A DNA stretch of 64,000 nucleotides from Nocardiopsis coralli (GTDB taxonomy: Bacteria; Actinomycetota; Actinomycetes; Streptosporangiales; Streptosporangiaceae). The first letter of the stretch is position 1. Every line of letters begins with the position of its first letter. The DNA lies in the NCBI RefSeq assembly GCF_014892575.1, contig NZ_JADBGI010000002.1, positions 186,001 to 250,000 on the forward strand, given 5' to 3'. Position numbers and translations under genes: made by a program. Below the pieces are notes generated by a model. The model made no database searches. It saw nothing but the letters and a program-made list of their open reading frames with translations, and was not told the origin of the DNA. This document shows positions 41,131-55,439 of this stretch, in pieces.

Positions 41131-41445
41131 GGCGCCAACGATAACCGGCGGGCACTGGACGGCCCTCCGGCACACTGGGCACCGGCCTCACCACTGCTGC
41201 CACCTGCGTCCCGTCGTGTGGCGCCCGTCCGCACACCGGCCCTGCGTGCGGAGACGATCGCCCGCCAATCGTAGCGTGTACGTTTAGTCCGTTTTTACAG
41301 GAATGACAACGCATAGCCGGTTTGCGTGTTCGTCCTCCACTGGGACCAACGCAGCGCCGGGCCCCGAGGGTTCCCGTGTGACCCCGGTGGCACAGGATCG
41401 GCCCGGCCTGCTGCGCCGCGATCGGGAGCCGGGGCCGGGGCCGCC
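41131..41445. other. Gene-less region between the phosphotransferase and ArsA-like genes
   Basis: No gene recognised. The A/T-richer patch around 41272-41318 (TAGCGTGTACGTTTAGTCCG and the following TTTTTACAGGAATG) probably holds the promoter of the phosphotransferase gene. Confidence 0.4.
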
Positions 41446-42351
41446 TCACCCGGGCAGGGCCTCGCCGATCTCCCGCAGGGCCTCGGGGCCGGTGGGCTCG
41501 TTCGTACGCAGGCCGAGTTCGACCGTGCCCAGGCCGGCGAAGCGCTCCCGGGTGGCCCGCAGCGCCTCCTCGGTGTCGGGTCCGGCGGCGCCGGGCTCGG
41601 GGATCTGGTTGACCACCACGGGCGCGAGCACGAACCCGGCCTCGGAGAGCTGCTCGACGGCGCGTGCGGTCTCGGCCAGCACCATGCGCCGGGCCAGCGT
41701 CACCAGCATCACCTGCGAGTCCCGGCGCAGGAGCACCGCGGCGTGCTCCAACCGGTGACGGCGTTCGTTGAGGCGCTTGAGGAGCGGGTCCTCGGCCATG
41801 TCGGGGCCGCGGTCGGAGACCACGTCGGCGAAGGCCTCGGCGCGGGCGGCCCGCTCGCGCTGGCGGGTCAGGCCCAGCACCCACGGGGTGAGCAGGGTGG
41901 GCAGGTTGAGCAGGCGCAGCAGGTGGCCGGTCGGTGCGCTGTCCACGACCAGGGCGTCCCAGCGGCGGCCGACCTCCTCCATCCGGTCCACGAGCAGGTC
42001 GGCCAGCGCGGACTCGGCCATCCCGGGGCTCGATCCGGCCTGCTTCAGGTGCCGGTGCACGGCCGGCATGATCTCGTGCGGCACCGCGTCCTGGGCGTCG
42101 TCGGCGACCTGGGCGATACGGCGGCGCACGGCGGCGTCGGCGTCGGGTTCGGCCGCCCACAGGTTCGGTGCGACCTCGACCGGTTCGTCGCCCAGGTCGC
42201 GTTCGAGGGCGTCTCCCAGGGAGTGTGCCGGGTCGGTGGAGACCACCAGAGTGCGCCGCCCCTGCCCGGCCAGGGTCAGGCCGCGGGCGGCGGCCAGGGT
42301 CGTCTTGCCCACGCCGCCCTTGCCGCCGACGAAAGTGATGGGCGCGCTCAA
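41446..42351 (-). CDS. ArsA-like anion-transporting ATPase family protein
   Basis: About 301 residues. Deviant Walker A GGKGGVGKTT at the N-terminus, switch DPAHSLGDALERDLG, and VVDSAPTGHLLRLLNLP mark the ArsA/Get3 family. No arsenite-binding cysteines are seen. The preferred start is TTG 42351, because AGGAGG lies exactly 6 bases upstream and the TTG overlaps the stop of the preceding gene (TTGA); an ATG at 42357 has the Shine-Dalgarno directly against it. Placement after cstA and the CC-tail gene suggests it serves the same membrane system, possibly as an insertion or maturation ATPase. Confidence 0.88.
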   Translation of the reverse strand: MSAPITFVGGKGGVGKTTLAAARGLTLAGQGRRTLVVSTDPAHSLGDALERDLGDEPVEVAPNLWAAEPDADAAVRRRIAQVADDAQDAVPHEIMPAVHRHLKQAGSSPGMAESALADLLVDRMEEVGRRWDALVVDSAPTGHLLRLLNLPTLLTPWVLGLTRQRERAARAEAFADVVSDRGPDMAEDPLLKRLNERRHRLEHAAVLLRRDSQVMLVTLARRMVLAETARAVEQLSEAGFVLAPVVVNQIPEPGAAGPDTEEALRATRERFAGLGTVELGLRTNEPTGPEALREIGEALPG

Positions 42352-42659
42352 CAGCATCCTCCTGGACCGCCGAAATCGTCCCGCCCCATGCGCTGGTGCC
42401 ATTCGTGCAGGTCGGCCACCATGTACGGGATCAGGTCCAGTGTCTCGTAGGCGACGGGGTTGTCCACGCCGAGGGTCTCGGTGAGCAGCAGCGCGCGCAG
42501 GGTGTCCTGCTGGGTACGGGCCTCGCGTTCGCGGGCGTGGCCCCAGCGCGCCTCGAAGACCTGCTGGTGGAAGTCCTCGACGCGGCGCCAGGCCCTCACG
42601 GTGCGGCGCCAGGCCCGGCCGAAGCGGCCGGACCCGGCGCCCTCGTCCCCGGCGCTCAC
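42348..42659 (-). CDS. Small cory-CC-star-type protein ending in Cys-Cys
   Basis: A 103-residue protein from GTG 42659, 41 bases after cstA ends. The body is helical and basic (WRRTVRAWRRVEDFHQQVFEARWGHAREREARTQ), then ETLGVDNPVAYETLDLIPYMVADLHEWHQRMGRDDFGGPGGCC-stop. The Gly-rich end finishing in Cys-Cys marks the family called cory-CC-star, as I recall it, which is known to neighbour ArsA-like ATPases. The tail also resembles YbdD/YjiX, the small partner of CstA-type transporters, whose C-terminus ends similarly in Cys-Cys. The two cysteine codons overlap the start region of the ATPase gene. Confidence 0.82.
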   Translation of the reverse strand: MSAGDEGAGSGRFGRAWRRTVRAWRRVEDFHQQVFEARWGHAREREARTQQDTLRALLLTETLGVDNPVAYETLDLIPYMVADLHEWHQRMGRDDFGGPGGCC

Positions 42660-42700
42660 GGGGTCCGCCCCCGCGTGCGTCCGTGGTCGGTGCGGTGCAC

Positions 42701-44557
42701 CTACTTCTCCTCCTCCGGGCGGTCCTTCACGGCGGCCTCGTCCCGGTCCTGCCCGTCCTTGCGGCCGCCGACGACAGTGCCGCCCTCGGCCACGACCTGG
42801 TCGGTCTCGGACGAGGGGTCGATCGGGTCGGCAGTGCCGCGGAAAGTGTCGCGCAGGGCCACGAAGGCCTCGACGATCATCCAGAGCGCGAGCACCAGGA
42901 TGATGGTGTCCAGCGGGGCCAGCAGGAACATGTCCAGGGCGCTGCCGGTGTCGAGGAAGCCGATGAGCTGCTCGATGAGCGCCCAGACCGTCATGAACAG
43001 CAGGAAGACCAGCGGGATGACGACCACGATCGGGTTGCGCCCCCGCTTGGCCACCCACACCGCGATGACGGCCAGCGCGAGGCCGGCGGTGAGCTGGTTG
43101 GTGGTACCGAAGAGCACCCAGAGCGTGCCCAGGGCGAAGTCGCCGGGCACCATCGCCAGACCGAACGGCAGGGCCACCGCGACCAGCGTGGTGAGCGACA
43201 GGTTGCGGGAGAAGCCGCGGAAGGCGCGGTTGGCGGAGCTGCCGGACTCGAAACGGCTCGCCGCCAGCAGCGACATCTCCTGCAGGATATAGCGCTTGAG
43301 ACGGACCGCCGTGTCGAGGGTCGTCACGGCGAAGCTGACGATGATGAGCGCGCCGAAGACCTGCGCGGTGCTCTCGGGGATACCGAGGTTGCTTGCGAAC
43401 CCGGCCACACCGTCGACGAACATGCCCTGCGGGTCGGCGCCCGCGTCTCCCCAGGTGGCGTAGAGCGAGGACCACTCGATGCCCTGGTTGCCGCTGAAGA
43501 GCATGACACCGGCGGTGCAGGCCAGGATCGAGGCCAGGGCCAGGGAGCCCTCACCGAGCGCGGCCATGTAACCGACGTACCGGGAGTCGGTCTCCTTGTC
43601 GATCTGCTTGGAGGTCGTGCCCGACGCGACCAGGCTGTGGAAGCCCGAGACCGCACCGCAGGCGATGGTGACGAACAGCAGCGGGAAGATCGAGGGCGAG
43701 TCGGCCGGCACGTCACGGAAAGCGGGTGCGGCGATGGTGTTCATACCCACCAGCACCCCGGCCGCGATGACCACCAGCGCCACGACCAGCTGGTGCTGGT
43801 TGATGTAGTCGCGCGGCTGCAGCAGCATCCACACCGGCAGGCGCGAGGCGATGTAGGCGTACAGGAACAGGATGAGGATCCACAGCACGGTGCTGCTGAT
43901 ACCGGTGGCCTCGGCGACCGGGTCCAGAGTGATGGGCATCAGCTGGCCCAGCGGGATGCAGGCGTAGAGCGTGACCAGCGCGATCAGGGAGGGGATGAGC
44001 GCCGCGGTGCGCTTGCGGTAGACGATCTGGCCGACGGCGATGGCCAGCGGCAGGGTCACGGCGGTGGGGAGCACGGCGGCCGGGTGCTGCTCCAGCAGAC
44101 CGGCCACGACGATGGCGAAGACCGCGTTCACCATCGTGACCAGGAAGAAGATGATCAGCAGGAACAGCACTCGCGCACGCCGGCTGATGACGTCGCCGGC
44201 CAGGGTGCCGATGCTGCGGCCCTTGTGTCGGACCGAGACGGCGATGGAGCCGAAGTCATGGGCTCCGGCGGCGAAGATGGTGCCCAGCACCACCCACAGC
44301 AGAGCGGGACCCCATCCCCAGAAGACGGCGATGGCGGGCCCGACGATCGGGGCCGCGCCGGCCACGGAGATGAAGTGGTGGGCCAGGACGATGTGCTTGT
44401 TGGTCGGAACGAAGTCGACACCGTCGTTGTAGGCGTGCGCCGGAGTGACGAAGCTCGGCTCCAGCGCATAGACCCGTTTGGCCAGGTAGACGGAGTAAAA
44501 GCGGTATCCCAGGGCGAAGAGCGCCAGGGTACCGAGGAGTACCGCTGCTGCGGGCAT
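42701..44557 (-). CDS. cstA: Carbon starvation protein CstA, pyruvate/peptide transporter
   Basis: A 618-residue membrane protein with about 16-18 hydrophobic segments. CstA landmarks: GYRFYSVYLAKRVYAL, TPAHAYNDGVDFVPTNKHIVLAHHFISVAGAAPIVGPAIA, GAHDFGSIAVSVRHKGRSIG, and SGFHSLVASGTTSKQIDKETDSRYVGYMAALGEGSLALASI. CstA and BtsT of E. coli import pyruvate or peptides during carbon limitation. The charged C-terminal tail (GGRKDGQDRDEAAVKDRPEEEK) is cytosolic. It heads an operon with the CC-tail protein and the ArsA-like ATPase. Confidence 0.96.
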   Translation of the reverse strand: MPAAAVLLGTLALFALGYRFYSVYLAKRVYALEPSFVTPAHAYNDGVDFVPTNKHIVLAHHFISVAGAAPIVGPAIAVFWGWGPALLWVVLGTIFAAGAHDFGSIAVSVRHKGRSIGTLAGDVISRRARVLFLLIIFFLVTMVNAVFAIVVAGLLEQHPAAVLPTAVTLPLAIAVGQIVYRKRTAALIPSLIALVTLYACIPLGQLMPITLDPVAEATGISSTVLWILILFLYAYIASRLPVWMLLQPRDYINQHQLVVALVVIAAGVLVGMNTIAAPAFRDVPADSPSIFPLLFVTIACGAVSGFHSLVASGTTSKQIDKETDSRYVGYMAALGEGSLALASILACTAGVMLFSGNQGIEWSSLYATWGDAGADPQGMFVDGVAGFASNLGIPESTAQVFGALIIVSFAVTTLDTAVRLKRYILQEMSLLAASRFESGSSANRAFRGFSRNLSLTTLVAVALPFGLAMVPGDFALGTLWVLFGTTNQLTAGLALAVIAVWVAKRGRNPIVVVIPLVFLLFMTVWALIEQLIGFLDTGSALDMFLLAPLDTIILVLALWMIVEAFVALRDTFRGTADPIDPSSETDQVVAEGGTVVGGRKDGQDRDEAAVKDRPEEEK

Positions 44558-44685
44558 AGGGGGAGACGTCCTTACTGCTATGTGTCCCAGATGGTGAGAC
44601 GTGGAAAAGGTGCCCAGGTGGGGGCCGGTCCTTTAAGGTGCCACAGAAGTTAACATGCGTGATACTCCTCCGAAAGGTACGACCT

Positions 44686-45489
44686 GTGCAGGACTTTCAC
44701 GATCTGTGGCGGCGCTCGACGGTCGCCGAACTCAGTTGGCTGTCCCCCGGCGGCCCGTGCGGCATTCCCGTGGTCCCGTTGGACGACGGGGGCCGACCGT
44801 GCGCCGCGCTGCCCCTGTCACTGTTGCCGGAGATCGACTCACTACCAGGGCGGGCCGCGCTCAGCGTGACGGTCCCCGGGGTGGCCGACCCCGACCGCCC
44901 CGGGCAGGTGGCCGTGGGCCCGGTCGAGGTGCGCCTGGACCCGCGCGGAAAGCTTTTCGGCGGAGAACTCGTCGAGCAGGAAGCGCACAAACACCCGCCC
45001 ACGCGCCTGCGTGCCGGCAGCCTGATGGCCCGGAACGAGAATTGGTGGTGGATGGGCCGTGCACTGGTGTTCCTTTCCGAGGCGGAGTCTGTCCACACAG
45101 TGAGACCGCGTTCCTCGGCCGACCACGCGCTGCTCGTGCGCGAGGAACACGGTGCCCCGGCGGTGCGGGTGGTCTCCTCCCCCGACTGGTCGGTGCGCAC
45201 CGACCGCCCGTCCCTGCCGTTGGCGGACGCGGGCGGCACCGCGCTCGAGGGGCGCGGTGAGAAGGTCCTGGTCTTCGGGCACCAGGCCAGCCCCGACTTC
45301 GAACGTTGGGAGCGCTGGACCCGCGAGGGCACGCTGACCGGGCAGGACCTGGTCGTGGCCGGTGCCGAGGGCGGCCCCGACCCCTCCCCCAGGCCGTTCG
45401 GGCTGTTGGAACGCCTGCGCAACCACCGCGAGGTCGAGCGCGCGTGCACGGCCGGCGTCGCCGAGCTCGAGCGCCGCGAACGCCTCTGA
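44686..45489 (+). CDS. Hypothetical protein, possibly FMN split-barrel related
   Basis: A 267-residue protein from GTG 44686 (GAAAGG 8 bases upstream). The N-terminus (DFHDLWRRSTVAELSWLSPGGPCGIPVVPL) is reminiscent of pyridoxamine-oxidase-like split-barrel proteins, but the resemblance is weak. Other conserved-looking parts are RAGSLMARNENWWWMGRALVFL and KVLVFGHQASPDFERWERWTREG. No signal peptide or membrane helix. It diverges from cstA and is convergent with the amine oxidase gene. Function unknown. Confidence 0.65.
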   Translation: MQDFHDLWRRSTVAELSWLSPGGPCGIPVVPLDDGGRPCAALPLSLLPEIDSLPGRAALSVTVPGVADPDRPGQVAVGPVEVRLDPRGKLFGGELVEQEAHKHPPTRLRAGSLMARNENWWWMGRALVFLSEAESVHTVRPRSSADHALLVREEHGAPAVRVVSSPDWSVRTDRPSLPLADAGGTALEGRGEKVLVFGHQASPDFERWERWTREGTLTGQDLVVAGAEGGPDPSPRPFGLLERLRNHREVERACTAGVAELERRERL

Positions 45490-50574: not shown

Positions 50575-52791
50575 TCAGCGCCGTGCCGCACGCAGGGCGC
50601 GGGCCACGATCTGCTCGCCCACCCCCGCTGTGAGGATCGACTCGGGGTGGAACTGCACCGCGGCCCAGCCGGTGACGGGGTCCTCGATGCCCATGACGAC
50701 CGGCCCCTCGTCGGGTTCCCCCTCGAGCACGGCCGTGACCTCGTAGCCCTTGACCTGGTCCGGGAAGGTGTAGGTCGAGTGGTAGCGCGCAGCGGGGAAC
50801 CGGCCGTCCTCGCCGAGCCCGCTGAGCAGCGACCCGCCGGTGACACGGACCCGGCCGGGCTTGCCGTGCACGGGTTCGTCCAGGGTGCGCAGCTCTCCCC
50901 CGGCGTGCTCGACCATGCCCTGCAGGCCCAGGCACACGCCCAGGACGGGCAGGCCGCGGGCGGCCAGGGCGTCGAGCAGCCCGTTCATGCCGAAGTCCTC
51001 GGGCAGGCCGGGCCCCGGGGACAGCACCACCAGGTCGGGGGCCAGACGGTCCAGGAGCTCGGGCGCGAACCCGTAGCGCACCGTCGTGACGTCGGCGCCG
51101 TGGCGGCGTACGTAGTCGGCGAGGGTGTTGACGAAGGAGTCCTCGTGGTCGACGAGCAGGACCCGCAGCCCCTCCCCCTCGGCCTCGCGTTCGGGTTCGG
51201 CGGCGGGCTCGGGCGCGGGCTCCTGGTCGGCGCGGTCGGCCTCCTCACCGAGGGCGAGGGTCTCCATGAGCGCCCGCGCCTTGAGGAAGGTCTCGCGCTC
51301 CTCCGCCTCGGGGTCGGAGTCGTAGAGGAGGGTGGCGCCGGTGCGCACCGCGGCGACCCCGTCGCGGATATGGGCCGTGCGCAGGGTCAGACCGGTGTTC
51401 ATCGATCCGTCGAAGTTGATGACGCCGACCGCGCCCCCGTACCAGCGGCGGGGGCTGGACTCGTTCTGTTCGATGAAGCGCATCGCCCAGGTCTTGGGTG
51501 CGCCGGTGACGGTGACCGCCCACATGTGCGTGAGGAAGGCGTCCAGGGCGTCGAAGTCGCGGCGCAGAGTGCCCTCGATGTGGTCGACGGTGTGGATCAG
51601 GCGCGAGTACATCTCGATCTGGCGGCGCCCGATGACACGCACGCTGCCCGGTTCGCACACGCGGGACTTGTCGTTGCGGTCGACGTCGGTGCACATGGTC
51701 AGCTCCGACTTCTCCTTGACCGAGGAGAGCAGCTCCTGGATGTTCTCGGCGTCGCCCAGGGCGTCCTCCCCTCGGCGGATGGTGCCGGAGATGGGGCAGG
51801 TCTCCACCCGCTGCCCCTCGCCGGGGCGGCCGCTGACCCGAACGAACATCTCCGGGGAGGCGCCGACGAGATATTCGCCCCCGCCGAGGTTGAAGAAGAA
51901 CTCGTAGGGGGCGGGGTTGCGCTCGCGCAGCATCTCGTAGAAGCGGGCGGGCGAGGAGCAGCGTGCGTAGTTGCGGTGGCCGGGCACGACCTCGAACAGG
52001 TCCCCGCGACGGAAGCGTTCCTTGGCCCGGGCGACGACCTGCGCGTAGGAGCCCGGTTCGGGGCCGGCGGGGACCTCGGCGGCCTGCACGGGCGGGGTCG
52101 GCGCGGTCTCGCGCGGTAGCCCCTCCGTGCTCGCCTCGGCGCGGTCGCCCTCGGCCGGCACGGTGAACTCGTAGGTGTAGCGCACGCAGGTCTCTCGCTT
52201 GCGGTCGCGCACGACGACGGCGTCGGGCAGGTGCAGGACGAGGTCGCGATCCTCGGGGTCGCGGTCGATGTGGCGCTCGACCGGCTCGAACTGGAACGCG
52301 AGGTCGTAGCCGAAGGCGCCGTAGAGCCCGAGGTTGGGGTCGTCGGGGCTGGACATGGCCCCCACGAGGGCGCGCACGGCGGTGAAGACGCTGGGCCGGC
52401 GGCTGCGCTCCTCCTCGGTGAAGAAGGCCTCGGGGTCGGGTTCGGGCACGGTCAGCACGGCGCGGTCGGCTGTCTCGGTGTCGAGGGGGGCGACGCCGGC
52501 CAGCGCGCGGGCGAGCACGGGCATCAGGACCCTGCCGCGGTCGTTGAGCGCTTCGACGGTGACGACGCGTCCGCGGGTGGACACCTCGGCGCAGGGGTCG
52601 ACGTAGCCCAGGTGCCAGCGGTCGTAGCGGCCCGGATACTCCATGCCGGAGGAGAGGACGCCCCCGCGGCGGTCCTCGACGTCGCGGACGAGGGTGGTGA
52701 GGACCTCGGGGTCGCAGGGGGTGGCGCGGCGGCGGACGGTGACCCCGCCCTGGGTGCGGTGGGTGCTGGTGTGCTCGTCGGTGGGCTGCAC
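50575..52791 (-). CDS. trpEG: Anthranilate synthase, fused TrpE-TrpG
   Basis: A 738-residue protein from GTG 52791 (AAAGGA upstream). Residues about 20-520 are the chorismate-using component I (GDLFEVVPGHRNYARC, VGASPEMFVRV, ETCPISGTIRRGEDA, SELTMCTDVDRNDKSRVCEPGSV, GAVGVINFDGSMNTGLTLRT). Residues about 555-738 are the glutamine amidotransferase (VDHEDSFVNTLADYVRRHGA, nucleophile Cys in VLGVCLGLQGMVE, HPESI). It makes anthranilate, the first tryptophan intermediate. Fusion is also typical of PhzE, but the leader with two Trp codons argues for tryptophan synthesis. No other trp gene lies nearby. Confidence 0.92.
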   Translation of the reverse strand: MQPTDEHTSTHRTQGGVTVRRRATPCDPEVLTTLVRDVEDRRGGVLSSGMEYPGRYDRWHLGYVDPCAEVSTRGRVVTVEALNDRGRVLMPVLARALAGVAPLDTETADRAVLTVPEPDPEAFFTEEERSRRPSVFTAVRALVGAMSSPDDPNLGLYGAFGYDLAFQFEPVERHIDRDPEDRDLVLHLPDAVVVRDRKRETCVRYTYEFTVPAEGDRAEASTEGLPRETAPTPPVQAAEVPAGPEPGSYAQVVARAKERFRRGDLFEVVPGHRNYARCSSPARFYEMLRERNPAPYEFFFNLGGGEYLVGASPEMFVRVSGRPGEGQRVETCPISGTIRRGEDALGDAENIQELLSSVKEKSELTMCTDVDRNDKSRVCEPGSVRVIGRRQIEMYSRLIHTVDHIEGTLRRDFDALDAFLTHMWAVTVTGAPKTWAMRFIEQNESSPRRWYGGAVGVINFDGSMNTGLTLRTAHIRDGVAAVRTGATLLYDSDPEAEERETFLKARALMETLALGEEADRADQEPAPEPAAEPEREAEGEGLRVLLVDHEDSFVNTLADYVRRHGADVTTVRYGFAPELLDRLAPDLVVLSPGPGLPEDFGMNGLLDALAARGLPVLGVCLGLQGMVEHAGGELRTLDEPVHGKPGRVRVTGGSLLSGLGEDGRFPAARYHSTYTFPDQVKGYEVTAVLEGEPDEGPVVMGIEDPVTGWAAVQFHPESILTAGVGEQIVARALRAARR

Positions 52792-52847
52792 GGCCGGTCC
52801 TTTGCGGAAGCTGGTCGGTGGGGACCGCAGGTCCGGGGCCGTTGGAG

Positions 52848-52877
52848 ACGAAGAACGACCGCCGGTGCGGGCGGTCG
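52848..52877 (-). terminator. Attenuator terminator of the trp leader
   Basis: On the minus strand CGACCGCC and GGCGGTCG form an 8-bp stem with a 6-base loop, followed by TTCTTCGTC. An upstream competing stem (52906-52913 with 52918-52925) follows directly on the two Trp codons. Its distal arm GGCGG can instead pair with CCGCC of the terminator, giving the classic 1:2, 2:3, 3:4 arrangement. Confidence 0.75.
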
Positions 52878-52912
52878 CTGTCACGTGGGTACGCGAACTC
52901 CTCGAGCGCCGC

Positions 52913-52960
52913 CTAGAGGCGGCGCCACCACTGGGCGCGGGTGGGGTTCACGGTTCGCAT
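52913..52960 (-). CDS. trpL: Tryptophan leader peptide TrpL
   Basis: A 15-codon gene encoding MRTVNPTRAQWWRRL with two adjacent Trp codons (52925-52930), then TAG. It lies 121 bases upstream of trpEG and immediately before mutually exclusive hairpins. Stalling at the Trp codons when charged tRNA-Trp is scarce should allow the antiterminator. No Shine-Dalgarno is present and a -10-like TACACT (minus strand, 52973-52968) lies 7 bases before the ATG, so it is probably leaderless. Confidence 0.82.
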   Translation of the reverse strand: MRTVNPTRAQWWRRL

Positions 52961-53056
52961 GGGCACGAGTGTAGCGCCTGGCGGGGTGTGCTGGGGAGGG
53001 AAGGCGGCGTGAGTCGGAACGCAGCATCGAGAGCGCACAAAAAGGGAGCCCCGTGT

Positions 53057-53079
53057 TAGGATACGGAGCTCAAAAGCTC
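53057..53079 (+). promoter_or_regulatory. Promoter-like site and palindrome upstream of the HelR-like gene
   Basis: TAGGAT (53057-53062) fits a -10 hexamer; four bases later GAGCT-CAAA-AGCTC (53066-53079) forms an inverted repeat placed over the likely transcription start. It does not match the remembered rifamycin-associated element consensus. Confidence 0.4.
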
Positions 53080-53126
53080 AGAAATCGATGTCTTCACACA
53101 TCTTACACGGTCAGGATATCACTCTC

Positions 53127-55439
53127 ATGAACCACGGTCAACAGGCCTCCGAGAGCGCCGCCGACACCTCCGCCGAACGTGCGGCCCTGGCCACCGAGCA
53201 GGCCCGGGTCGACGTGATGTACCGGCGCCTGGACGAGCTGCGTGCGAACACCGAGGGCCGGCTCTCCGACGCCCACGCCCAGGAGCGTTCCGGGTACGCC
53301 GCCCTCGAGGAGCGCGAGACCCGCGCCTTCGAGCACGCCCGGCGCCGCGGCCAGCTCGGCTCGGTCGAGGAGGGCCTGTGCTTCGGCCGCATCGACCTCG
53401 CCCACCCCGGTGAGGACGATCCCGAGGCGCGGTACATCGGGCGCATCGGGCTGCGCGATGCCGAACACGAGACGATCCTGGTGGACTGGCGCGCCCCCGC
53501 CGCGCGCCCGTTCTACGCGGCGACCCCGTTCGACACCCAGGGGGTGACCCGCCGCCGCAGCCTGCGTGTGCGCCGGCGCCGTGTGGTGGGCCTGGACGAC
53601 GACGTGCTCGACGCCGAGCGCCTGTCGGACTCCGAACGCAGCGGGCTGGTGGGCGAGGCCGCGCTGCTCGACTCGCTGCAGCGCGGACGCACCGGGCGCA
53701 TGGGCGACATCGTGGCCACCATCCAGGCCGAGCAGGACCGGGTCATCCGCGCCCCGTTGTCCGGGATCATGGTGGTCCAGGGCGGCCCCGGCACCGGCAA
53801 GACCGTGGCGGCGCTGCACCGCGCGGCCTACCTGCTCTACACCCACCGGCGGGTGCTGGAACGGCGCGGGGTGCTCGTGGTCGGCCCCAACCCGGCGTTC
53901 CTGCGCTACATCGGCGACGTGCTGCCCGCGCTGGGCGAGAGCGAGGCGGTCATGCGCACCCTCGGCGAGCTCGTGCCCGGGGTGCACGCCACCGCGCACG
54001 ACGACCACGAGCACGCCCGTGTCAAGGGGTCGGCGCGGATGGCCGACCTGGTGCGCGCCGCGGTCGAGGACCGCCAACGCGGCCCCCGGCAGGCCTTCGA
54101 CACCGAGGACCTGCACGTGGTGACCGACTCGGGCACGGTGACGGTTCCCGGCCAGGTGTGCGCGCAGGTACTGGAGACCGCGCGCGGACTGGGACTGGCG
54201 CACAACGTCGCCCGCAAGTACGTGGTCACCACACTGCTCCGGGAGATCGCACGCGCCGAGTCGCACCTGCTCGAGCGCCCCGTGGACGAGGAGGACCTGC
54301 CCTTCCTCGCCGAGCGCCTCTGGTTCGAGGACCCTGTGCACGCCGCGTTGGAGGCCCTGTGGCCGTACTTGGGCCCGCAGCAGTTGCTGGAGGAGCTCTA
54401 CGGCGACCCCGAGGCCCTGGAGAGGGTGGGTGAGAGCGCCGGTCTGGACAGCGGCGAGCGTGCCCTGCTTGCCCGGGAGGCCGGGGCGCCCTGGACGGTC
54501 GAGGACGTGCCGCTGCTCGACGAGGCCGCAGAGCTGCTGGGTGAGGACAACAGCGCCGAACAGGCGGCCGAGCGCCGCCGCAGGGCCGAGCAGGAGGACG
54601 AGGTCCGTTACGCCCAGGGCGCCCTGGAGATCACCGGCATGCACGAGGACAACCGGATCGAGGTCGCCGACTTCGCGTCCTTCCACCACGACGGCGGGCC
54701 CGAGCGCACCACCGCCGACCGGGCCGCGGCCGACCGCGAGTGGGCCTACGGGCACGTGGTCGTCGACGAGGCCCAGGAACTGTCGGCGATGGGCTGGCGC
54801 GCGATCGTGCGGCGGGTCCCCACCCGGTCGCTGACGGTCGTGGGCGACCTGGCCCAGACCGGCGGCGCGGGCGGCGCCGGTTCCTGGACCGAGGCCCTGG
54901 AGCACCACGCCCCGGGCAAGGTGCACGTGGAGCACCTGCGCGTCAACTACCGCACCCCGGCACCGATCATGGCGGTCGCGGCGGACGTGCTGGCCGTGGC
55001 CGAACCGGGCCAGGAACCGCCGGAGTCGGTCCGTACCGAGGGCGACCCGCCGCGTGCGGTCGCCGTGGACGGGCCGTGGGAGGAGGGCCTTCCGGGTCTG
55101 GTCGAGGAGGAACGCGGCGCTATCGGCGAGGGCCGTGTGGCGCTGGTGACTGCGGACCGACTGGTGGAGGAGGTCGCCGCGGCCGTGCCCGGGGCGGCGC
55201 GGCCGGCACCGGGGCGCGACGCGCTGTCGCAGGAGGTGGTGGTGCTGACCGCGACCGAGGCCAAGGGCTTGGAGTTCGACTCGGTCGTCGTGGTCGCCCC
55301 GGAGGCGGTCCTGGAACAGCCGCGCGGGGCCAACGACCTGTACGTGGCGGTCACCCGGGCCACGAGACGCCTGACGGTGGCGCACTCCGGGGACCTGCCA
55401 CCGGTTCTGGCGCGGTTGCGCGAGACCGCGGGGGTCTGA
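53127..55439 (+). CDS. HelR/HelD-type ATPase, RNA polymerase recycling family
   Basis: A 770-residue superfamily 1 ATPase. The start at 53127 has AGGA 10 bases upstream; an in-frame ATG at 53088 has no ribosome site. The N-terminal coiled coil (about 15-80, ALATEQARVDVMYRRLDELRANTEGR) is the arm used by HelD proteins to reach into RNA polymerase. Walker A is GGPGTGKT in SGIMVVQGGPGTGKTVAALHRAAYLLYTHRR; later motifs are VVVDEAQELSAMGWRAI, DLAQTGGAGGA, VNYRTPAPIMAVA, LTATEAKGLEFDSVVV. HelR releases stalled polymerase and can protect it from rifampicin. The second palindrome copy lies 19 bases after the stop. Confidence 0.88.
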   Translation: MNHGQQASESAADTSAERAALATEQARVDVMYRRLDELRANTEGRLSDAHAQERSGYAALEERETRAFEHARRRGQLGSVEEGLCFGRIDLAHPGEDDPEARYIGRIGLRDAEHETILVDWRAPAARPFYAATPFDTQGVTRRRSLRVRRRRVVGLDDDVLDAERLSDSERSGLVGEAALLDSLQRGRTGRMGDIVATIQAEQDRVIRAPLSGIMVVQGGPGTGKTVAALHRAAYLLYTHRRVLERRGVLVVGPNPAFLRYIGDVLPALGESEAVMRTLGELVPGVHATAHDDHEHARVKGSARMADLVRAAVEDRQRGPRQAFDTEDLHVVTDSGTVTVPGQVCAQVLETARGLGLAHNVARKYVVTTLLREIARAESHLLERPVDEEDLPFLAERLWFEDPVHAALEALWPYLGPQQLLEELYGDPEALERVGESAGLDSGERALLAREAGAPWTVEDVPLLDEAAELLGEDNSAEQAAERRRRAEQEDEVRYAQGALEITGMHEDNRIEVADFASFHHDGGPERTTADRAAADREWAYGHVVVDEAQELSAMGWRAIVRRVPTRSLTVVGDLAQTGGAGGAGSWTEALEHHAPGKVHVEHLRVNYRTPAPIMAVAADVLAVAEPGQEPPESVRTEGDPPRAVAVDGPWEEGLPGLVEEERGAIGEGRVALVTADRLVEEVAAAVPGAARPAPGRDALSQEVVVLTATEAKGLEFDSVVVVAPEAVLEQPRGANDLYVAVTRATRRLTVAHSGDLPPVLARLRETAGV

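Follow-up and report, generated by a model that had tools for sequence, protein, structure and literature searches.

The bacterial pyruvate carrier CstA has a small partner protein that ends in Cys-Cys and to which no role has been assigned, although CstA-dependent pyruvate uptake in Escherichia coli requires this partner, YbdD (PMC5847655; this paper, like the others cited below, is drawn on in part). Castillo and Saier (2010) reported another arrangement, in which CstA occurs with an ArsA homologue (26 cases, of which 24 include CstX, a protein of about 90 residues) and the CstA and ArsA trees are largely congruent, showing coevolution; they proposed that ArsA energises CstA, with CstX as the linker (PMC2963123). 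Their cstA-cstX-arsA cases included ones from Bacillus, Oceanobacillus, gammaproteobacteria and haloarchaea, and they listed a 301-residue homologue from Thermobifida fusca (PMC2963123). Here we analyzed such a set in Nocardiopsis coralli, on a 64,000-nucleotide stretch of contig NZ_JADBGI010000002.1 (positions 186,001 to 250,000 of the forward strand; assembly GCF_014892575.1), referred to below as the window. A sequence-only reading of the window had taken an ATP-driven step in such a system to be undescribed, which the 2010 report of these operons and of a coupling role corrects. We found that the clade of CstA carriers to which the window protein belongs pairs with a Cys-Cys-tailed protein of the cory-CC-star family and an ArsA-like ATPase, whereas a separate clade of long CstA carriers pairs with Cys-Cys-tailed YbdD and has no ATPase. 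The separation of the Cys-Cys tail from the ATPase is new here, as is an unnamed thioredoxin-like partner of the first CstA clade.

The three genes of the window are adjacent on the reverse strand, as in the published operon, and lie where the sequence-only reading had placed them. The first, cstA (42701..44557), encodes a short-type carrier of 618 amino acids that matched PF02554 with 443 bits (cut-off 27) over two stretches. Against NF011590, the E. coli-type pyruvate/proton symporter CstA, it reached 248.2 bits with a cut-off of 1188, and no solved relative was found at E <= 1. The second gene, cstX (42348..42659), encodes 103 residues when read from GTG 42659 and matched NF041419 (cory-CC-star) with 103.8 bits (cut-off 80) over positions 1-80 of the 80-position profile; the product ends in GGPGGCC, the terminal Cys-Cys pair being encoded by TGC TGT (42351..42356, reverse strand). 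This start leaves 41 bases between the gene and cstA, as noted before; GTG 42599, which would give a gap of 101 bases, is also possible because the NF041419 match begins only at residue 25, which makes the start of cstX less certain. The third gene (41446..42351) encodes an ArsA/Get3-family ATPase of 301 residues with a single domain and no cysteine. Its TTG start overlaps the stop codon of cstX (TTGA), a detail that the sequence-only reading had right, and is well placed because a ribosome-binding site, AGGAGG (42358..42363, reverse strand), lies within cstX 6 nucleotides upstream; the gene could also begin at ATG 42357, which is in frame but touches the AGGAGG. The ATPase scored 185.4 bits with TIGR00345 (cut-off 135) and 175.2 bits with PF02374 (cut-off 24.3), and has the P-loop GKGGVGKT and a DSAPTGH motif. 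Its nearest solved sequences are the algal ArsA1 and a putative arsenical pump-driving ATPase (3zq6), with Get3 proteins also among the nearest. Positions 41250-44800 of the window showed no terminator-like or sigma-70-like sites.

The published CstX is probably the NF041419 protein, judging from operon position and size, and we use the name CstX for both. The family name carries no information on function, and our literature search found no paper using 'cory-CC-star'. The window protein had no Pfam family in a Pfam scan, and PF04328 (YbdD/YjiX, DUF466) matched neither this protein nor anything else in the window's genome. Its predicted structure is all-helical, at modest confidence and without a confident fold, and the model had no fold match in the PDB at E <= 10. 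Searches of the small proteins against PDB sequences gave weak matches only (best E 0.11 and 0.17). A membrane segment was not evident in CstX by eye, with no predictor of transmembrane segments (TMS) run. NF041418 was also considered as a relevant family and is unrelated.

The linkage of the three genes proved to be widespread. Among 246 Actinomycetota genomes searched with NF041419, 23 had a match, 17 of them above the cut-off; the match in one genome (G240, locus L051) was excluded before counting, its open reading frame (ORF) not resembling the family. The remaining 22 genomes comprise 18 with a one-ATPase locus and four with cstA, two CstX relatives and two ATPases, a set that is split over two contigs in G034. 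The ATPase gene directly follows cstX in all 18 one-ATPase loci, and cstA lies on the other side in 17, two of these as contig-end fragments; the 18th, in which cstA was not seen, starts at a contig end. From at least 584 Bacilli loci we inspected the 80 best, a choice biased to relatives of the query, and all three genes stood in order in 78, the other two being cut by a contig end. The triad was also present at all three plasmid loci examined (Paracoccus, Pseudochrobactrum and Cytobacillus, from six records matched). A sample of 149 Bacillota genomes gave CstX matches in ten. The centre genome has a triad, five genomes have two-ATPase loci, one has the odd locus L164, and the remaining three have cstX-ATPase pairs without an adjacent cstA, which lies elsewhere in all three genomes. 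A CstA on a Halostella plasmid had no CstX or ATPase within 17 kb, and archaeal triads rest on the part of PMC2963123 drawn on here and on a control match in Haloferax volcanii that was below the cut-off. Because the arrangement is conserved across genomes, chance proximity of the genes is excluded. The operon of the sequence-only reading is thus real and widely conserved. That reading would have been refuted had CstX and the ATPase mostly occurred without cstA, and this is largely not so: the misses among the Actinomycetota (17/18) and Bacilli (78/80) loci are contig ends, though in three of the ten Bacillota genomes with a match the pair is apart from cstA. In these three loci (L156, L157 and L158) the tail of CstX reads DWCC, and the ORF directly after the pair in L158 has a CVC motif and looks, by eye, like a regulator of the ArsR type.

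The CstA tree, which like all trees here came from a quick search, holds 72 rows (the fragments L046, L081, L040 and L063 were left out) and is divided into the triad clade with the window protein (32 rows, support 99), a two-ATPase group (support 100), a long YbdD-type group (support 100) and a group without partners; three long-branch rows (L164, L143 and L179) are of unsure placement. Two row labels need qualifying: L180, at a contig end, is labelled 'none' though its nearest relative has two ATPases, and L183 is labelled 'long_noYbdD' from a four-row profile, yet PF04328 finds YbdD there (G214). YbdD was found in 23 of the 246 phylum genomes; in 21 of them a full-length CstA with a high score is no more than 0.5 kb away, and in the other two the matches are on different contigs. 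All 13 YbdD loci whose surroundings were examined lacked CstX and the ATPase, and one genome (G171) carries both kinds of CstA, each with its own partner beside it. The YbdD proteins whose ends were read terminate in RCC. The suggestion that a small Cys-Cys-tailed partner is a general part of CstA systems is therefore upheld to the extent that CstA of two separate clades each has such a partner. Beyond the tail, homology between YbdD and CstX was not detectable (hhalign probability 3.7% local, 0.2% global). A CstA cysteine that would track the tail was also sought and rejected: Cys300 (window numbering) is invariant in 72/72 carriers, whether their partners are tailed or tail-less. In some Campylobacterales the terminal Cys of DUF466/YbdD is selenocysteine (Sec), from which a redox role was inferred (PMC4607533), and a 2026 review lists the Sec-tailed form as KCU-star (PMC13188914).

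Within the CstX-ATPase systems, the tail and the ATPase come apart as well. We compiled 105 one-ATPase loci (18 from Actinomycetota, 2 from Alphaproteobacteria, 81 from Bacilli, 3 from further Bacillota, and L164), and CstX has the Cys-Cys tail in 104, L164 being the sole exception. None of the 17 CstX relatives in nine two-ATPase genomes has it, and four such relatives scored 31-43 bits with NF041419, below the cut-off. These loci (L046-L050 and L159-L163) carry two diverged ArsA paralogues along with the tail-less relatives. The two ATPases form sister clades (support 99 and 98), the pattern that an old duplication leading to a heterodimer would leave. Two CstX relatives are present in eight of the nine genomes and suggest a ratio of one CstX to each ATPase subunit, although in three of these genomes the second relative is encoded a few kilobases off, beyond the ATPases and on the opposite strand. 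We also considered that the tail might be kept merely because the ATPase start falls within its codons. This is not general, as Cys-Cys persists in the Bacilli compared, in which the ATPase begins with an ATG 16-28 nucleotides past the stop codon of cstX.

Many triads contain a fourth gene between cstA and cstX, present at 11 of the 18 Actinomycetota loci and at least 26 of the 81 Bacilli loci (profile search) and lacking in the window, whose genome gave no match to the profile (17 of 70 first-look candidates scored). It encodes a protein of about 125-130 residues that has a DPRN motif and, close to the N terminus, a motif of the GxG-CC-G type. In the phylum, the profile found it in 13 of 246 genomes, namely the 11 triads and the two genomes (G183 and G236) of L168 and L177, whose triad-clade CstA lost CstX and the ATPase; the extra protein therefore stays with the carrier when CstX and the ATPase are gone. 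By coordinates the gene directly follows cstA in 12 of these 13 genomes, the 13th (G108) being at a contig end. A narrower profile found it in 16 of 249 genomes of an order-wide Bacilli sample, in this operon in 15 (the exception is L223). The Actinomycetota homologues directly after cstA are of the Cys type (L030-L038, L041, L042, L168 and L177); the motif is Cys-Cys in the copies read and degenerate or misassembled in G108.

In Bacilli, the motif has the form GxG-(Sec/Cys)-CGG, with CCxxxC in some, and the codon for its first Cys is TGA in 13 of 26 copies and Cys in 12, the region being missing in one. TGA forms occur at L062-L064, L068, L069, L076, L077, L083, L091, L094, L097, L100, L112 and L215-L225, and Cys forms at L081, L086, L087, L090, L093, L096, L098, L101-L103, L109, L126, L213 and L214. 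A tRNA-Sec above the Rfam cut-off was detected in 8/8 and 10/11 genomes with the TGA form (the miss is G450) and in 0/11 and 0/2 with the Cys form, counts that exclude four TGA loci and one Cys locus from a later profile search. It was also detected in six of seven Bacilli without the extra gene at the locus, and is therefore no predictor of the gene. A hairpin resembling a Sec insertion sequence (SECIS), with 7 base pairs and a GGG loop, begins 13 nucleotides past the TGA. Its pairing holds in 99.2% of pair cells over 17 distinct sequences, and the outer pair is C-G in eight and G-C in eight, an exchange that may be a single event since the sequences are related. The hairpin was not seen in ten Cys copies, and Rfam gave only sub-threshold matches on four loci. 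Together these features make the extra protein a candidate selenoprotein in some Bacilli; an entry matching it was not recognised in the parts drawn on of two papers on prokaryotic selenoproteomes (PMC13188914, PMC9312934).

The extra protein had no Pfam or NCBIfam match above cut-off and no ArsD match in either database, its best sub-threshold matches including Thioredoxin_3 (E 0.019) and the MTH895/ArsE thioredoxin-like family (E 0.031). The predicted model is thioredoxin-like, with a predicted local distance difference test score (pLDDT) of 75.1, but below 50 over the motif (residues 12-32). It resembled thioredoxins (Z up to 7.8) and ArsD (3mwh; Z 6.3, root-mean-square deviation 3.8, 80 residues aligned) and had no Foldseek match at E <= 0.001; fold scores at this level may reflect just a common arrangement. 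Two single copies stand out. In Halobacillus dabanensis (L086, 5656-6264; a single genome) the Cys form and CstX share one open frame, which could be a natural fusion or a sequencing error, and in L225 (4210-4662) the TGA-type gene carries additional residues behind the Sec motif that seemingly interrupt it.

The reading that we put forward, and which we consider to have about an even chance of being right, is that CstX works together with the ATPase as a single module by which CstA is switched or energised, and that the Cys-Cys tail acts on the carrier side. We read the two as a module because they are jointly absent beside CstA in L168 and L177, occur together away from cstA in three genomes, and were duplicated together. 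In this scheme CstA would be the membrane carrier, and CstX and the ATPase would form a cytosolic unit, an ATPase homodimer with one CstX per subunit, that docks onto CstA via the helical body of CstX. The ATP cycle would then switch or energise transport of pyruvate or a similar small carboxylate, and the tail would be a switch on the carrier side that responds to redox state or a soft metal, as may hold for YbdD, rather than the ATPase's handle on CstX. Several observations weigh against this scheme. L168 and L177 belong to the triad clade and lack CstX and the ATPase beside CstA (the NF041419 search found no CstX in these genomes; for the ATPase the absence concerns the surroundings of CstA), and one whole CstA clade is without either partner. 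L162 shows one CstX relative for two ATPases. The single ATPase of L164 goes with a tail-less CstX relative, and the CstA of that locus sits on a long branch that is not part of the triad clade. A target thiol was not seen on CstA, where no cysteine tracks the tail, and the CstX model is poor (pLDDT 67.8, predicted TM-score 0.34). Finally, the proton gradient drives E. coli CstA (PMC7730263); an ATPase is therefore dispensable for transport as such in the E. coli CstA clade.

The sequence-only reading had instead proposed that the ATPase acts on the Cys-Cys tail, either by recognising it or in a maturation step. The near-constant tail in one-ATPase loci (104/105) fits this idea, which the other comparisons disfavour: YbdD has the tail without any ATPase, the two-ATPase genomes pair their ATPases with tail-less proteins (0/17), and the ATPase itself offers no conserved cysteine, as no alignment column exceeds 30% Cys and 57 of the 104 one-ATPase sequences are cysteine-free. 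Because tail and ATPase separate both ways and no ATPase cysteine is conserved, cysteine-based recognition of the tail is unlikely, as is a role of the tail as the ATPase's tag on these sequence comparisons, and we regard maturation or recognition of the tail by the ATPase as very improbable. A handling of soft metals, metalloids or thiol conjugates after the manner of ArsD-ArsA, with CstA as the channel and the tail, together with the thioredoxin-like protein where it occurs, as ligands, appears somewhat less remote. It would accommodate the CC motif of the extra protein, the ArsD among the matches to its model and the putative ArsR-type regulator beside the orphan pair of L158. Against it stand the lack of a conserved ATPase cysteine, the absence of an ArsD match to the extra protein in Pfam or NCBIfam, and the gene content of the operons, as cst operons contain no arsenic genes according to the part of PMC2963123 drawn on here and none are annotated in the three plasmid loci.

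The ATPase might also target or assemble CstA in a Get3-like manner with CstX as adaptor, ATP being spent on biogenesis rather than on transport. Membership in TIGR00345 and the Get3 proteins among the nearest solved sequences argue for this, and the pair is dispensable in some genomes with CstA, as would suit an accessory biogenesis factor. Fungal and animal Get3 proteins have a CxxC zinc motif at the dimer interface, and this motif occurs in none of 104 one-ATPase and none of 18 two-ATPase sequences, the window ATPase having no cysteine at all; moreover, other CstA clades do without such an adjacent ATPase. We consider a Get3-like role unlikely, though worth keeping in mind. That the three products are mere neighbours acting separately is scarcely credible: only three genomes have the pair away from cstA, and the same gene order recurs in Actinomycetota, on plasmids of Alphaproteobacteria and in Bacilli, in line with the published coevolution (PMC2963123).

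Returning to the module of CstX and ATPase acting on CstA, a broader version of it includes the fourth protein. Triad CstA might be under thiol or selenol control, with the tail switching on redox or soft-metal cues, the CstX-ATPase pair as an ATP-driven regulator and the thioredoxin-like protein, a selenoprotein in some Bacilli, as the redox partner; we offer this tentatively, as a possibility that falls short of being probable. If the Sec/Cys protein does act on the tail or the carrier, the system would be tied to thiol redox chemistry. CstA would also join ArsAB as another example of a secondary carrier under an ArsA-type ATPase, should such control be real. The comparison separates the carrier, the Cys-Cys tail and the ATPase, which are commonly lumped together. 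Experimental work on the cstA-cstX-arsA set was not found among the matches listed in our literature search.

Some neighbouring features were also recorded. Upstream of cstA in the window lies a divergent ORF of 283 residues (44638-45489, forward strand) without a Pfam or NCBIfam match. Elsewhere in the same genome (G000:C22, about 52128-53965), two more ArsA-family matches are adjacent and possibly form a BagA/BagB-like pair. Downstream of the triad on the Cytobacillus spongiae plasmid (L062, 8762-12150), annotations of TusA, DsrE, a metallo-beta-lactamase (MBL) fold protein and TauE point to sulfur handling. Two loci from records titled Pseudomonas sp. ISL-84 (L111) and Chryseobacterium sp. 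ISL-80 (L131) are Bacillus-like triads, so these titles are probably wrong.

Compared with known systems, the window locus is closest to the operon of Castillo and Saier, with the same set of CstA, a CstX of about 90 residues and a single-domain ArsA, and the Thermobifida fusca homologue has the same length as the window ATPase (PMC2963123). Their CstX is stated to have a single TMS, unlike the window protein as judged by eye, and the part of their paper drawn on here mentions neither the Cys-Cys tail of CstX nor a fourth thioredoxin-like protein nor YbdD (PMC2963123). The E. coli CstA-YbdD pyruvate transporter likewise combines a CstA-family carrier with a small partner (PMC5847655, PMC7730263), whereas the YbdD-linked CstA proteins of the phylum form a clade apart from the window CstA and have no adjacent ATPase. 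The arsenical pump ArsA has two fused domains and cysteines 113, 172 and 422 (PMC2963123), features that the window ATPase lacks. The window ATPase belongs to the same ATPase family as ArsA, Get3 and BagA-BagB, but differs from them in being single-domain and cysteine-free and in adjoining cstA rather than ars genes.

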